NCBI GenBank assembly: GCA_018302685.1
Contig: JAGVZK010000010.1
Span: 1-34,241, forward strand
Direction: 5' to 3'
From: Candidatus Woesearchaeota archaeon
GTDB lineage: Archaea; Nanobdellota; Nanobdellia; SCGC-AAA011-G17; GW2011-AR20
DNA: 34,241 bases
Below are positions 1,620 to 33,621 of this stretch, in pieces. The translations under genes and the position numbers were made by a program. The notes under the pieces are model-generated. The model had not been told where the DNA came from. It worked only from the letters and a program-made list of their open reading frames with translations, and ran no database searches. Within the stretch, counting starts at the first letter, position 1; the number at the start of each line of letters is the position of its first letter.

Positions 1620-2786
1620 ATGAATTTCAATAGGTTTGCAATTATATTTTTGATTTTTGCTTTATTACTTGGATTTTTAACTGGCTGCACGGCAAAACAA
1701 ACTCCAGGGATTAAGCCGGGAAACTTTTTCGAGGAAGGACAGTGCGAAGGCCCAGTAATAGGAACAATGGTGAGAAGCAACGTACTGCTGAGCAATAAAT
1801 TCTACAGGGAGGGTTTTACAGACAACTTTGAGTGGGGAACTATTCCTGGGAAGCACGAATTTGAGATCATCCATCCATCCGGCAGCGAGTACCGATTTGA
1901 AAGCGCAGATGCGGCTCTAAGCCTTTTAGAAAACAGCAACAAACATTATGGAATATATCACAATCTCATTACGTCAAGGGACATCAGAATTCCTGACTGG
2001 TATAAATTGCTGAGCCAGGAAGAGAAAAGAGCCTTTCTTGAGAATCACATAAGAACAATGGTTTCACGATACAAAGGGAGAATTCCTGTCTATATTGTAG
2101 TCAATCATCCCTTGCTGTGGGAATGGAAGTCTGCAAATGATTTCATGGGAACCGGGTGGAACAGGGTTGATGCCCTGAGCAATTTCTTCACATGGGCTCA
2201 TGAAGAAGACCCTAAAGCAATCTTGATATTAAATGAAGGAGGGGACTCAAGTCTTGAAACAGGAGTTATCATCAACCAGAGCAGAGGGCAGGAGTATGTT
2301 GATTTGATAAATGAGCTTTTAGACAGGGAAGTTCCAATCCACGGAATCGGGCTTATGGGGCACTTTGGATTGGGCGACGGGACTCTACCTCCTGACGAGC
2401 ACCTTATTAATATTCTGGATTTATATGAGTCAACAGGGCTTCCAATCTTCATAACTGAATTGGATGTAAGCTATGACTGGACAAGGGCATTTGCAAACCC
2501 TGAAGATTCTGAATATCCCTTTAATCCTGAAACTGAATTTGAGGGTGATGGGATGAAGTATGAAAACTATTGGGAGTATCAGGCATATGCATACAAGCAT
2601 GCGATTGAATTATTTTCATCCCATAAGAGCGTCGTGGCAATCTATCTTTGGGACATTGTAGAAAGCCCAGAATCATGGAGAACCGGAACAGGAATATATT
2701 TTAATGACGGCAAGCCAAAGCCCGCCTACTATTCAATCAAGCCACTGCTTGATGATGCCAAAGGAAGGAAACTATGCATCACCTAA
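1620..2786 (+). CDS. GH10-like (xylanase-fold) lipoprotein with altered acid/base residue
   Basis: Secreted, probably lipid-anchored relative of glycoside hydrolase family 10. Residues 1-23 form a hydrophobic signal ending in a lipobox (LTGC, Cys23). The GH10 landmarks follow in order: YHNLITSRDIRIPDWY (usual GHTLVWH...PSW), YIVVNHPLLWEW (usual WDVVNE), IHGIGLMGHFG (usual IDGIGLQSH), LPIFITELDVSYDW with nucleophile Glu280, and a C-terminal VVAIYLWDIVES...GKPKPAYYSI. The acid/base Glu that should follow Asn162 is His163 (codon CAT at 2106-2108). The nucleophile is kept, so the protein may be inactive on normal xylan, may act by another mechanism, or may only bind glycans. Length (388 aa) is normal for one catalytic domain plus signal. 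Confidence 0.85.
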   Translation: MNFNRFAIIFLIFALLLGFLTGCTAKQTPGIKPGNFFEEGQCEGPVIGTMVRSNVLLSNKFYREGFTDNFEWGTIPGKHEFEIIHPSGSEYRFESADAALSLLENSNKHYGIYHNLITSRDIRIPDWYKLLSQEEKRAFLENHIRTMVSRYKGRIPVYIVVNHPLLWEWKSANDFMGTGWNRVDALSNFFTWAHEEDPKAILILNEGGDSSLETGVIINQSRGQEYVDLINELLDREVPIHGIGLMGHFGLGDGTLPPDEHLINILDLYESTGLPIFITELDVSYDWTRAFANPEDSEYPFNPETEFEGDGMKYENYWEYQAYAYKHAIELFSSHKSVVAIYLWDIVESPESWRTGTGIYFNDGKPKPAYYSIKPLLDDAKGRKLCIT

Positions 2787-3703: not shown

Positions 3704-5416
3704 ATGGATCGGAAAAACATCACGTGGGATCTGTCTGATCTTGGCAAGCTGGAAAATATTGACAAGGAAGTTTCTGAAATAAGGAAATTAGCGGACAAAA
3801 TAGAAAAATACAGAAAAAATTTCAATGAGAACATTTCCTCTAAGGAATTTCTTAAGATACTGAATGAGACTGAAAAATTGATGGTCCGCCTGTCAAAAAA
3901 TGCCTCTCTGATCCATCTCAATTTTTACAAGGACACAAAAAATCCTAAATTCCACTCGTTAACATCAAAAATAGACACTCTCGGAGCTGAAATCAGCAAC
4001 AAACTCATGTTCATCAGCCTTGAATTCAAAAAATTCAGCGAAAAAAACGCAGAGAGGCTAATCAAGGAAACTCCAAGCCACAGCTACTATTTGAAAAGGC
4101 TGCGGGAGCTGAAGGATTACACTCTTGCCGAAGAGGTTGAGAAGGTTATTAATCTGAAGGATGTTAGCGGAATCAACGCATTAATTTCAATCTATTACAT
4201 CTTTGTCTCTGAATTCAAATATGAATTTGAAGGCAAAAAAATAACGCAGGAGGAACTGCTGAAGCATGTCAAGGATACTAATCCAAAAAGGAGGGAAAGG
4301 GCATATGAATCTTTATTGGGGAAGTACAGGGAAAATAAAAATATCATCTCATTGATATATTCCAATGTAGTCAACAACTGGATGACGGAAATTCAGCTGA
4401 GGGGATACAAAAGCCCAATCTCAATAAGGAATGAGGCAAACGATCTTGAGGATGAAGATGTGGACACCCTTCTGAGAGTCTTTGAAAAGAATATTGACAT
4501 TTTCAGGGAATACTTCAATGCCAAAGCCAAAGCCCTTGGAGTGAAAAAGCTCAGGAGGTACGACATCTATTCGCCTATGTCAAAAATAAAAAAGGAATTT
4601 GATTTCAATAAAGGAAGAAATCTTGTCATTGATTCTTTTTCAGGCTTTGACGACTTTAAGAAAATAGCGGAGGATATCCTTAAGAATCATGTTGACAGCG
4701 AGGTAAAGGAAGGAAAGAGGGGAGGAGCCTTCTGCCACTGCCCCAATCCCAAAACAAAGCCATTCGTGATGATGAGCTACACAGGAGATTTAAAATCGGT
4801 TGAGACGCTTGCACATGAACTTGGACATGGAATACACTTCAGCCTATCAAGCAAGAATAATATTTACTCTCACGATGCAGTGCTTCCTATGGCCGAGACC
4901 GCATCAACTTTCTGCGAAACCCTCTGGCTCAGCCACATGAAGAAAAAATTCCGGGACATCAGAAGAGACCTTATTTTCACCGAGCTTGACGGTGCATACG
5001 CTTCGATTGCAAGGCAGTTTAATTTCGTCATCTTTGAAAAGAAGGCTCATGAGCTGATAAAAAACGGCGGAAGCTCAGAGGATATTGAAGAGTTATACCT
5101 TGACCTGCTGAAGAGGCATTTTGGCGACTCTATAGAACTGAATGATATATTCAGATATGAATATCTTTACATTCCCCATATATTTGAAACTCCCTTCTAC
5201 TGCTATGCCTATGGTTTTGGACTGCTGCTGGCGCTGAGCCTCTACAGGAAATACCTTGATGACAACAGCTTCAAAAAAGACATTGTGAAGATATTTAAGA
5301 GCGGAAGCAATGATTCTCCGAGGAATATCCTTAAAAAATCTGGGATCGAGATGAATGGAGAGTTCTGGCAGAACGGCTTTGATTATCTGAGAAGTCTCGT
5401 GAAAGATTTGAAATGA
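3704..5416 (+). CDS. pepF: Oligoendopeptidase F, M3B metallopeptidase
   Basis: Cytoplasmic zinc peptidase of family M3 that cuts short peptides, likely downstream of the proteasome encoded in this window. The zinc motif is AHELGHGIHF, with His371, Glu372 and His375. The third ligand is in PMAETASTFCE, with Glu398 the candidate. The N-terminus MDRKNITWDLSDLGK matches the family's standard opening (WDLSDLY). Length (570 aa) is normal. The ATG lies about 24 nt after a TTTTATATTA stretch, so a leaderless or near-leaderless message is likely. The last four bases overlap the start of the endonuclease III gene (ATGA), so the two are translationally coupled. Confidence 0.95.
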   Translation: MDRKNITWDLSDLGKLENIDKEVSEIRKLADKIEKYRKNFNENISSKEFLKILNETEKLMVRLSKNASLIHLNFYKDTKNPKFHSLTSKIDTLGAEISNKLMFISLEFKKFSEKNAERLIKETPSHSYYLKRLRELKDYTLAEEVEKVINLKDVSGINALISIYYIFVSEFKYEFEGKKITQEELLKHVKDTNPKRRERAYESLLGKYRENKNIISLIYSNVVNNWMTEIQLRGYKSPISIRNEANDLEDEDVDTLLRVFEKNIDIFREYFNAKAKALGVKKLRRYDIYSPMSKIKKEFDFNKGRNLVIDSFSGFDDFKKIAEDILKNHVDSEVKEGKRGGAFCHCPNPKTKPFVMMSYTGDLKSVETLAHELGHGIHFSLSSKNNIYSHDAVLPMAETASTFCETLWLSHMKKKFRDIRRDLIFTELDGAYASIARQFNFVIFEKKAHELIKNGGSSEDIEELYLDLLKRHFGDSIELNDIFRYEYLYIPHIFETPFYCYAYGFGLLLALSLYRKYLDDNSFKKDIVKIFKSGSNDSPRNILKKSGIEMNGEFWQNGFDYLRSLVKDLK

Positions 5417-18183: not shown

Positions 18184-18813
18184 ATGAAAAACATCATTGT
18201 ATTCTGCGCGCACAGCGATGATTCTGAGATTTCAATAGGGGGGACAATATTGAAATATTCCCTAGATTATAACATCATAAAGCTGATCCTTTCTTCAGGG
18301 GAAAAGTCAACGCCGCACCTTCACGAGGAGTACATAATAAATGAGAGAATAAAGGAGACTGAGAGAATATCCAGGAAGATGGGGATAAAGGAAAATATTT
18401 ACTTTCATTTAATCGACGGGAAACTGCAGAAGTTCAAGAATGATGAGGGCATATTAAATCAGGTCAGGGATATAATCCTAAAATACAGGCCGGCGAAGAT
18501 ATTCACTTTGACTCCTATAGACCCGCATCCAGACCATAGGGCGGCTAATGAGATAACACTGAATGCCCTGAAGCTTTCCAAATATGAATGCCCTGTTTAT
18601 GGGTATGAAGTGTGGAATTTGATAAAGTTAAGGCAGCCGATGGTTTATGAGGATATCACCGAATTCTTCAGGAAAAAGGTGCAGCTCATGAGGGAATTCA
18701 GGTCCCAGTGGATATCCATTTATGCCTTGTTGATCCCGACATACATAAGGGCAATAAGGAACGGGGGAAAGATAAAAAAGAAATATGCTGAGAGGTTTTT
18801 CAAGCTGAAATGA
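18184..18813 (+). CDS. PIG-L/LmbE family deacetylase
   Basis: Zinc-dependent N-acetylglucosaminide deacetylase family. The N-terminal metal motif is FCAHSDDSEIS (His10, Asp13; the usual AHPDDE has Ser in place of Pro), and the second motif is IDPHPDHRAANEI. Length 209 aa is typical. The stop overlaps the following glycosyltransferase start by four bases (ATGA). The pair resembles pathways where a sugar is transferred and then deacetylated, as in GPI or bacillithiol synthesis; here a surface glycolipid or small glycoside is an inference. Confidence 0.9.
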   Translation: MKNIIVFCAHSDDSEISIGGTILKYSLDYNIIKLILSSGEKSTPHLHEEYIINERIKETERISRKMGIKENIYFHLIDGKLQKFKNDEGILNQVRDIILKYRPAKIFTLTPIDPHPDHRAANEITLNALKLSKYECPVYGYEVWNLIKLRQPMVYEDITEFFRKKVQLMREFRSQWISIYALLIPTYIRAIRNGGKIKKKYAERFFKLK

Positions 18814-19844
18814 AATACTTATTCATAATAACAGGAGTTGCATACGGCCATCTGACGAGGCAGGAGTCTATCATAAGCAGGCTGGAGAAGCTGGACAGGA
18901 ATGCAGAGATAGTGATTGCAGGTTATAACACTTCTTACAATTATTTTAAAAAAAAGTATAAAGTCATAAAGCTTGAGCCGATTTATTTTGGGAGTGAATG
19001 TCCACGGGTAAAAACATTTGAAATCCTTTCGAAGAACAACAGGCTCATCTCAAACTGGATTAAAAATTATCACATAATAAAAAGCTTCAGGAAAAGCTTC
19101 AATCCCAACGTTACAGTTTCTGACTGGGAGCCTTTTTCCCTTTTCCTGAAGGACTGCTACATGACATGGAATTACAAGCCATTTCCGGCCAGAACGCTTT
19201 CATTCATATTCCAGAAGTTTTTGCTGAATGTCCTTTTCTCGGTAATAAAGCTGGTAGATAAGAGGATAATCATTCCAAGCATAATGGAAATGAATGACAC
19301 AAAGAACTTCCTTTATTTCCCTTTGATAATAAGAAAATTCCCAGATGAAGTAAAGGAAAAAAAAGGGTATAAGAATTCAATAGTTGTCATGATTGGCGGC
19401 TCTGACTTTGGAATTTCACTAGCAAGAAAAATAAGGAATGTCTCCAAAAATTTCAATGAAAAATTCGTTTTCTTTGGTTTGAAATGCAAATCTGAGAACT
19501 GCATCGGATTTAGGGGATTCAGGGGCGATTATCTGTCGTTTTTGAAGTCATCAAAGGCTGTGATAAGTCTGGCAGGATACTCCGGATTGTCGGAGGCATT
19601 GGTTTACAAAAAGCCTAATTTGATTTTCCCGATAAAAAACTGGATAGAGCAGGATTCTGTCGCAAGGGAGTTTGAAGATTATGTTAAAGTTGGGAGCATA
19701 GAGTCATCAGAGGCTGAAATAAAGGATATACTTGAGAATTTTCTTTTGAATCTTGAAAACTACAAGAAGAGGCTCGACAGTTTGGAGATCAAGGATGGAG
19801 CAAGAGAAGTGGCGGAATTCCTGTATAGAGAGGCTAGTTCTTAG
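18810..19844 (+). CDS. GT-B glycosyltransferase (MurG/UGT-like)
   Basis: A 344-residue glycosyltransferase of GT-B fold. The N-terminal domain opens with KYLFIITGVAYGHLTRQESIISRLEKL, the loop that holds the acceptor site in MurG-like enzymes. The C-terminal donor domain has IVVMIGGSDFG, VFFGLKCK, and SLAGYSGLSEALVYKKPNLIFPIKNWIEQDSVAREFEDY, corresponding to the family's nucleotide-sugar motif ending in EQ. A hydrophobic patch near residues 130-150 could contact the membrane. It is coupled to the PIG-L deacetylase by a 4-nt overlap, pointing to transfer of an N-acetyl sugar that is then deacetylated. The donor is not determined. Confidence 0.85.
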   Translation: MKYLFIITGVAYGHLTRQESIISRLEKLDRNAEIVIAGYNTSYNYFKKKYKVIKLEPIYFGSECPRVKTFEILSKNNRLISNWIKNYHIIKSFRKSFNPNVTVSDWEPFSLFLKDCYMTWNYKPFPARTLSFIFQKFLLNVLFSVIKLVDKRIIIPSIMEMNDTKNFLYFPLIIRKFPDEVKEKKGYKNSIVVMIGGSDFGISLARKIRNVSKNFNEKFVFFGLKCKSENCIGFRGFRGDYLSFLKSSKAVISLAGYSGLSEALVYKKPNLIFPIKNWIEQDSVAREFEDYVKVGSIESSEAEIKDILENFLLNLENYKKRLDSLEIKDGAREVAEFLYREASS

Positions 19845-32148: not shown

Positions 32149-32865
32149 TTATTTTTTACTTACACTCCAAAGAATATTAAAATATATTTTGAACGTGTCT
32201 GCAAACTCTTTTCCCCTAATAACTATTGAAACAACTTCAGTTTCATCAAGTTTTCCAATAATTAGATTGTTTTCATAAATTACAAATCCTACTGAAGAAG
32301 AAAATCTTTCAGGCAAAAATTTATATTCTATCTTTTTAAAGAATTTTAATCTTTCAGATATATTTTTAGTATCTGGTTGTAGTAGTTTTATCTTTAATTG
32401 TTCAAATTTATCTCGTATGTACTTTGAAAACTTAAAACTTTCAACAAGATGTAAACCTCCGCCAACCCAATAGACTTCTTTTCCATTTTCAATTGCATCT
32501 TCTAAGATTGTCTTTATTCCTTGTTTTCCCGTTAATATTTCTATTTTTGTGTTGTTGAATTTTGATTTTTGTAAATTTTGTAAAATAGGCAGAATTGTCT
32601 CTAATGTGAATACTTTTTCATCTATTAATTGTTTTAGTGTTTTAACATCATTCGCATTGAAAAATTTTGTCCCATTAACAATATTATATGTTAATAGACC
32701 TTTAGTGATTAATAATTCTAAGTTATCATAAATAGTTCTTCTGTTGATTCCCGTATTTTTAGAGAGTGTGACTGTTGTTTGTTGCGGAATTTTTAATAAA
32801 GATAAATATATTTTTGATTCTATGGTATTTAATCCTAATTTTTTTAATTCTTCATAGAGTTCCAT
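32149..32865 (-). CDS. TrmB-family transcriptional regulator
   Basis: A 238-residue regulator. The N-terminal winged helix is typical of TrmB (MELYEELKKLGLNTIESKIYLSLLKIPQQTTVTLSKNTGINRRTIYDNLELLITKGLL), followed by a coiled linker (LKQLIDEKVFTLETILPILQNLQ) and a C-terminal TrmB sensor-like domain (KIEILTGKQGIKTILEDAIENGKEVYWVGGGLHL). I chose ATG 32865 rather than 32964 because a TATA (GCTTTATATATTTG, 32883-32896) lies just upstream and the longer form would overlap the divergent gene. Codons are AT-rich (AAA, TTA, AGA) compared with trpS. It probably controls the divergent prenyltransferase-like gene (inference). Confidence 0.85.
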   Translation of the reverse strand: MELYEELKKLGLNTIESKIYLSLLKIPQQTTVTLSKNTGINRRTIYDNLELLITKGLLTYNIVNGTKFFNANDVKTLKQLIDEKVFTLETILPILQNLQKSKFNNTKIEILTGKQGIKTILEDAIENGKEVYWVGGGLHLVESFKFSKYIRDKFEQLKIKLLQPDTKNISERLKFFKKIEYKFLPERFSSSVGFVIYENNLIIGKLDETEVVSIVIRGKEFADTFKIYFNILWSVSKK

Positions 32866-32882
32866 ATCATCAAGGATTCGTT

Positions 32883-32896
32883 CAAATATATAAAGC
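32883..32896 (-). promoter_or_regulatory. TATA box for the TrmB-like gene
   Basis: Minus-strand GCTTTATATATTTG, 18-31 nt before the ATG at 32865; it decides the shorter start. Confidence 0.5.
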
Positions 32897-32952
32897 TTAC
32901 GGGGGATTTCCCACACATTGATTATTATACTTAATGATGATACCCTTCGATA

Positions 32953-33621
32953 ATGATAAAACACATACTGTTTATGCCTGATGGAAACAGACGATTTGCT
33001 AAAGAAAAAAACATTTCTCTTGAAGAATCATATCTTGTAGGTGCTAAATCTCTTAGATTATTTAGTGATTTTTTTCTTTTAGAAAATAATTGGAATATAT
33101 TAACGATGCATTGGATGTCTAGATACACGCATGGTAGAAATGATGGGAGTCTTAATCCTATCTATGATGCACTATATAATGAATTTACAAAATTACATGA
33201 TGAGAAATATTTTTCTAAAAAAGATATTAAATTCAAGTGGATTGATCATTCTAATAAACTGCCTAAAAATTTGGTAGAACTGTGCCAAATATTAGAGAAA
33301 GAATCCAGTTATGGGGACAAAATATGCTATAATTTATTGGGTTATGATTTGGAAACAGATGAACGAATAGCATATGAACAAACAAATAATTATGAAGATT
33401 TTACAAAAAATAGATTAATTCCTGATATAGATTTGATTATTCGAACTACTGAGATGAGATTATCAAAAGGTCCAGTTTATGCTATGTCTCAAGCACAGAT
33501 GCTCTTAGTTCATAAACTTAATCCAGAATTAACAAGAGACGATTTGGAAAGATCATTACATGAATATAATGCTCTTGTAGAATACAGAAAGATAACGAAT
33601 CCCATTCATTTATCTACTTAA
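32953..33621 (+). CDS. Divergent cis-prenyltransferase (UppS-like) protein
   Basis: Related to undecaprenyl/polyprenyl diphosphate synthases. The first motif HILFMPDGNRRFAK (Asp10, Arg13, Arg14) matches HIAxIMDGNxRWA, and the later DIDLIIRTTEMRLSKGPVYAM matches DLLIRTSGExRLSNF (Arg164 and Arg169 kept, one residue shorter). The Glu that binds magnesium in the usual YAE is Gln182 (SQAQMLL), and the STENW segment is unrecognisable (LTMHWMSRYTHGRN). It may have changed activity or act as a non-catalytic partner. Length 222 aa is close to normal. It is divergent from the TrmB-like gene within the 16-bp inverted repeats, and AT-rich. Confidence 0.75.
   Translation: MIKHILFMPDGNRRFAKEKNISLEESYLVGAKSLRLFSDFFLLENNWNILTMHWMSRYTHGRNDGSLNPIYDALYNEFTKLHDEKYFSKKDIKFKWIDHSNKLPKNLVELCQILEKESSYGDKICYNLLGYDLETDERIAYEQTNNYEDFTKNRLIPDIDLIIRTTEMRLSKGPVYAMSQAQMLLVHKLNPELTRDDLERSLHEYNALVEYRKITNPIHLST

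Follow-up and report, generated by a model that had tools for sequence, protein, structure and literature searches.

A GH10-derived predicted lipoprotein of a Woesearchaeota archaeon with histidine at the acid/base position and a remodelled active site

Main finding

The stretch of archaeal DNA analysed here (34,241 nucleotides, referred to as the window) codes for a 388-residue protein that is homologous to the xylanases of glycoside hydrolase family 10 (GH10) and has a histidine, His163, at the position of the general acid/base glutamate. The nucleophile glutamate, Glu280, is kept. Six further active-site positions, all constant or nearly so in the family, are replaced. The observation is confirmed, in a somewhat stronger form than the preliminary description of this DNA gave it, as that of an orphan protein with a remodelled site, and it rests on one genome. 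The most likely reading, to which we give about an even chance on the evidence of this single genome, is that of an exported, lipid-anchored GH10-derived protein that would have lost the classical xylanase mechanism and would act as a glycan-binding pseudo-glycosidase at the cell surface.

Family assignment and predicted export

The protein matches a single Pfam family, PF00331 Glyco_hydro_10, with a score of 120.3 bits (cut-off 22.1), and it scores 176 bits with a profile of 174 GH10 members that was built without it. A phmmer search of solved structures matched 136 distinct sequences, and among the matches listed nearly all are GH10 xylanases. The homology extends from residue 45 to residue 373, and over the catalytic domain the score exceeds the curated Pfam threshold, while identity to any GH10 found is about 33% at most. 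By homology the protein is GH10-derived, yet, judged by its active-site residues, it would not be a functional member of the family.

Read by eye, the amino terminus features a hydrophobic helix followed by LTGC23, which fits the prokaryotic lipobox [LVI][ASTVI][GAS]C and predicts lipidation. Besides the lipobox Cys23, the mature chain has just two cysteines, Cys42 and Cys386. They lie at opposite ends of the barrel and may form a disulfide clasp, consistent with export. The coordinates of these and of the active-site features are listed in Table 1.

Table 1. Positions in the window of the GH10-derived gene and of the residues discussed in the text (Cex, reference GH10 numbering)
Feature	Position	Strand	Basis
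GH10-derived lipoprotein ORF (P0001), 388 aa	1620..2786	+	ORF call, Pfam, host-like codon usage
N-terminal hydrophobic signal up to the lipobox L-T-G-C23, whose Cys23 is the predicted lipidation site	1620..1688	+	Sequence; helix 4-20 in model
Cys42, possible disulfide partner of Cys386	1743..1745	+	Putative pairing
Residues 76-80, PGKHE, vs GH10 ENxxK (Cex E43, N44, K47; -2/-1 subsite)	1845..1859	+	Profile alignment, ungapped
His114, Cex His80 equivalent, kept	1959..1961	+	Profile alignment; phmmer to 4k68
Thr118-Ser119 vs GH10 Trp84-His85	1971..1976	+	Profile alignment
Asn162, Cex Asn126 equivalent, kept; codon aat	2103..2105	+	Asn in 174/174 GH10s
His163 at acid/base position; codon cat	2106..2108	+	Glu in 173/174 GH10s, Asp in 1
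Glu168, beta4-alpha4 loop, candidate relocated acid	2121..2123	+	Sequence; loop length
Met246 vs GH10 Gln203	2355..2357	+	Gln in 174/174
His248, Cex His205 equivalent, kept	2361..2363	+	Homolog alignment
Glu280, nucleophile, Cex Glu233 equivalent, kept; codon gaa in ITELDV	2457..2459	+	Glu in 174/174
Asp282, Cex Asp235 equivalent, kept	2463..2465	+	Homolog alignment
Trp344, Cex Trp273 equivalent, kept	2649..2651	+	Homolog and profile alignments
Cys386, possible partner of Cys42	2775..2777	+	Putative pairing

The catalytic pair

In retaining GH10 enzymes the acid/base residue protonates the leaving group and activates water. Positions are compared here with those of Cex, which also provides the numbering and the subsite roles. 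The register that sets the Glu of the VVNE motif (Cex Glu127) on His163 is identical in the phmmer alignments to solved GH10 xylanases, in the MAFFT alignment and in the profile of the 174 GH10s. Since this position is Glu in all but one of the 174 homologs and Asp in the remaining one, His163 is not a chance reading. The Asp of the family WDVVNE motif, four residues before the acid/base position, is Ile159 in the window protein. Note that the sole other exception among the homologs (L174), a GH10 from the search of the phylum Planctomycetota, reads VIND.

The preliminary description had reported the acid/base Glu replaced by His163 with the codon CAT, and the nucleophile Glu280 intact within ITELDV. 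Both readings agree with the ORF, and the substitution recurs in every alignment made. Its view that only one catalytic residue was lost holds for the catalytic pair and fails for the active site as a whole, where six further substitutions are found.

Other active-site positions

The replaced positions are E43, N44, K47, W84, H85 and Q203. The ENxxK motif of the -2/-1 subsite is absent, the window protein having P76, G77 and E80 at columns where, among the 174 homologs, E is found in 154, N in 156 and K in 163 (about ten homologs do not cover these columns). At the -1 site, Trp84, His85 and Gln203 are replaced by Thr118, Ser119 and Met246. The kept set comprises the equivalents of His80, Asn126, His205, Glu233, Asp235 and Trp273. 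A first MAFFT register had placed His109 at the Cex His80 position; it needs a gap of four residues that homologs do not typically show and was rejected in favour of His114, whose HNLI is aligned with HNLV by phmmer (4k68) and also by the independent profile.

Divergence is not confined to the active site. Across 94 homologs, 34 columns reach a conservation of 95% or more. The window protein retains 19 of these in the MAFFT register and about 20 after the His114 correction, while almost all homologs keep a fraction of at least 0.9. Losses are about equally frequent at active-site columns (6 of 12; P of at least six = 0.44) and at the remaining conserved columns, as expected under relaxed catalytic constraint. 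The retention of all six nucleophile-side residues has a hypergeometric P of about 0.02, which is weak because the set was chosen post hoc and the column count is the uncorrected one. A fast-evolving pair of GH10s, from Nostoc (L011:439-1599, within an exopolysaccharide synthesis cluster) and Neorhizobium (L010:1201-1899), has an altered ENxxK motif and intact catalytic Glu residues.

Predicted structure

Structure prediction, which the preliminary description had proposed as a check, gave a confident GH10-type TIM barrel. The AlphaFold2 model, built with 41 relatives in the alignment, has a pLDDT of 81 and a pTM of 0.83. It is a (beta/alpha)8 barrel with the catalytic positions at the ends of strands 4 and 7: the strand formed by residues 157-162 ends at Asn162, position 163 follows directly, and Glu280 lies inside strand 276-284. 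In the model His163 and Glu280 thus occupy the places that the acid/base and the nucleophile have in clan GH-A. The best 50 solved structures listed by Foldseek are all GH10 folds, one of them a computational design. The agreement of the model is to be taken as a consistency check that is not fully independent, the alignment behind it being itself one of GH10s.

Distribution and divergence

The comparison set was assembled from plasmids, genome contigs, viral contigs and whole-genome searches and amounts to 174 distinct homologs. Degenerate patterns, chosen with the help of a synthetic consensus row that served for pattern choice only, gave 80 loci; an earlier degenerate-pattern scan for GH10 loci had no matches.

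No other GH10 was found in the 103 genomes searched of the same order, the family included, and no other true GH10 in a phylum sample of 371 genomes. The preliminary description, which called secreted xylanase-like proteins unexpected in this host, is borne out by these counts in that GH10 is very rare there. Weak PF00331 matches in four genomes of the phylum were rejected as GH10s: the motifs are GH1-like in three of them (G178, G199 and G313) and GH5/GH39-like in the fourth (G173). The last is an exported lipoprotein with a WNEPN motif (L003:1249-2526), so glycosidase-fold lipoproteins occur beyond the source genome.

Single-protein scans of genome and viral contigs yielded no homolog of the window protein in sister genomes. 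Exhaustive per-genome searches in the phyla of one archaeal, one Bacteroidota, one Planctomycetota and one Bacillota relative yielded nothing closer, the best match having about 93 bits and 32-34% identity. The window protein falls outside all groups of the tree, on an end branch of 4.9 changes per column (median 0.17). A search of the literature on catalytically dead GH10s, on His-substituted GH10s and on GH10 in Woesearchaeota or other DPANN found nothing specific.

Gene neighbourhood

The gene is a full-length ORF of 388 codons with no frameshift and no stop. Its codon usage and GC content are mid-range among the window genes and, as in its neighbours, arginine is encoded almost exclusively by AGA/AGG. 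The flanking genes are archaeal and code for a CPSF-type exonuclease, a proteasome beta subunit, ribosomal proteins and tRNA-His. The superoxide dismutase (SOD) gene found just upstream (519-1106) codes for a protein 78% identical to the SOD of the closest relative (G011).

In that relative (L121:1842-4581) the SOD gene is followed directly by genes for a PIG-L deacetylase and a glycosyltransferase. In the window these two lie at 18184-19844, 17 kb away from SOD, which places the GH10 gene in a rearranged, lineage-specific stretch. An M3-family oligopeptidase (PepF-like; 3704-5416), encoded 1 kb from the GH10 gene, is matched in none of the family's 12 other genomes and is thus as lineage-specific as that gene. 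The 130-residue protein encoded directly upstream of the GH10 gene (1193-1585) has no Pfam match and no match in 50 relatives. Toward the other end of the window, the genes for a TrmB-like regulator and a UppS-like prenyltransferase (32149-33621) have a GC content of 0.26 and 0.29 and a third-position GC of 0.18-0.19, the rest of the window being at about 0.40; they were possibly acquired recently.

Function and rival explanations

In the favoured account, a xylanase-type GH10 TIM barrel would have been acquired long ago and would now be orphaned. The predicted lipobox LTGC would have it exported and lipid-anchored outside the cell of a DPANN-type archaeon. The classical GH10 retaining mechanism would have been lost, with His as acid/base residue and with ENxxK, W84, H85 and Q203 gone. 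A sugar-sized pocket would be left on the nucleophile side, lined by the equivalents of His80, Asn126, His205-Glu233-Asp235 and Trp273. The protein could then serve in cell-surface glycan binding or adhesion without catalysis, perhaps helping the cell to attach to or recognise a host cell or a biofilm polysaccharide. From established GH10 chemistry, the absence of Glu127 together with the rebuilt -2 side makes ordinary xylan hydrolysis unlikely. Such a role has a parallel in the GH1-like domains of Klotho, clan GH-A pseudo-glycosidases in which one catalytic Glu is missing and binding replaces hydrolysis. The window protein shares with them the retained barrel and the missing Glu; it differs in belonging to another GH family and another kingdom, and its own binding role is a proposed one. 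Two considerations speak against a pseudo-glycosidase: the retention of all six nucleophile-side residues may mean that some chemistry is still under selection, and the acid may have been relocated, Glu168 and Glu80 being candidates.

A possible, though clearly less probable, explanation is that the protein is still an enzyme of altered chemistry or specificity. Glu280 would then be the nucleophile for another glycan, with the acid/base role falling to His163 or to a relocated carboxylate such as Glu168, or being dispensable with a good leaving group. The last case is that of the myrosinase-type GH1 enzymes, whose good leaving group makes an acid/base unneeded. Besides the complete nucleophile side, the loop that follows His163 and contains Glu168 is slightly longer than usual (length 17; homolog median 15). 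General acids that are His are documented in other glycosidase families: in GH117, with the Asp232-His324 pair of Bacillus subtilis NagZ (GH3) and a GH156 sialidase also named (PMC11574756). What they would share with the window protein is a His in, or close to, the place of the general acid. They are unrelated families, however, and their His is paired with an Asp, whereas the possible dyad partner in the window protein, the Asp of WDVVNE, is replaced by Ile159. The six other changes of the active site also argue against a working enzyme, and a phosphorylase is unlikely for an extracellular lipoprotein. The narrower proposal of a GH10-fold surface enzyme with His or a relocated acid in place of the acid/base carboxylate, which would retain its nucleophile Glu together with the surrounding -1 sugar contacts and act on a non-xylan glycan, is rather improbable.

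The preliminary description had offered a changed mechanism, non-catalytic glycan binding or transglycosylation; the first two come naturally from the residues found. Transglycosylation or thioglycoligase-like behaviour is less likely than a broad remodelling. A retaining glycosidase whose acid/base is replaced becomes a thioglycoligase (PMC8836076), and GH10 mutants of this type share with the window protein the kept nucleophile and the removed acid/base Glu, but they are engineered single changes with a full xylan-binding site, while the subsites of the window protein are remodelled too. The six further substitutions and the long end branch make the simple behaviour of an enzyme that lacks only its acid/base the less likely case.

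Another reading, that of a xylanase gene gained by horizontal transfer that no longer has a function and is drifting towards loss, would account for the very long branch, for the absence of the gene from all other family and order genomes sampled and for the adjacent genes being lineage-specific too. It is unlikely, as the ORF, the signal and the lipobox are intact, the codons are host-like, the core motifs and fold are coherently retained, and a neutral gene would not remain open across such divergence. An ordinary xylanase that merely looks different is very unlikely. Its one argument is the GH10 score far above the cut-off. The window protein does share with GH10 endo-beta-1,4-xylanases (4k68, 3emc and the Thermotoga maritima XynB 1vbr) the TIM barrel, the nucleophile Glu, the Asn before the acid/base, the His and Asp near the nucleophile and the Trp273 equivalent, but it has His for the acid/base Glu and is devoid of ENxxK, W84, H85 and Q203. 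The least likely explanation of all is an artefact of sequencing, binning or assembly, either one wrong codon or a chimeric contig joining a bacterial gene to archaeal ones. The genome is a draft (473 kb recovered in 28 contigs, 78% complete) and the gene is found in no sister. A point error is unlikely because GAA/GAG and CAT differ by two bases or more and because more than a dozen further conserved positions are changed as well; a chimera is countered by the host-like codon usage and GC content and by the archaeal flanks, among them the CPSF exonuclease, the proteasome beta subunit and the conserved SOD.

Implications

Few residues of glycosidases vary as little as those of the GH10 active site: Asn126, Gln203 and Glu233 are invariant in the 174 sequences. 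If the proposal of a GH10-fold surface enzyme with His or a relocated acid were true, clan GH-A would have, in a DPANN-type archaeon, a case of the acid/base being replaced in nature. The host is a very small, probably host-dependent archaeon, and the remodelled GH10 protein could be a glycan-recognition pseudo-glycosidase in an archaeal symbiosis. Alternatively, it may be a natural test of how a retaining glycosidase can work without an acid/base carboxylate.
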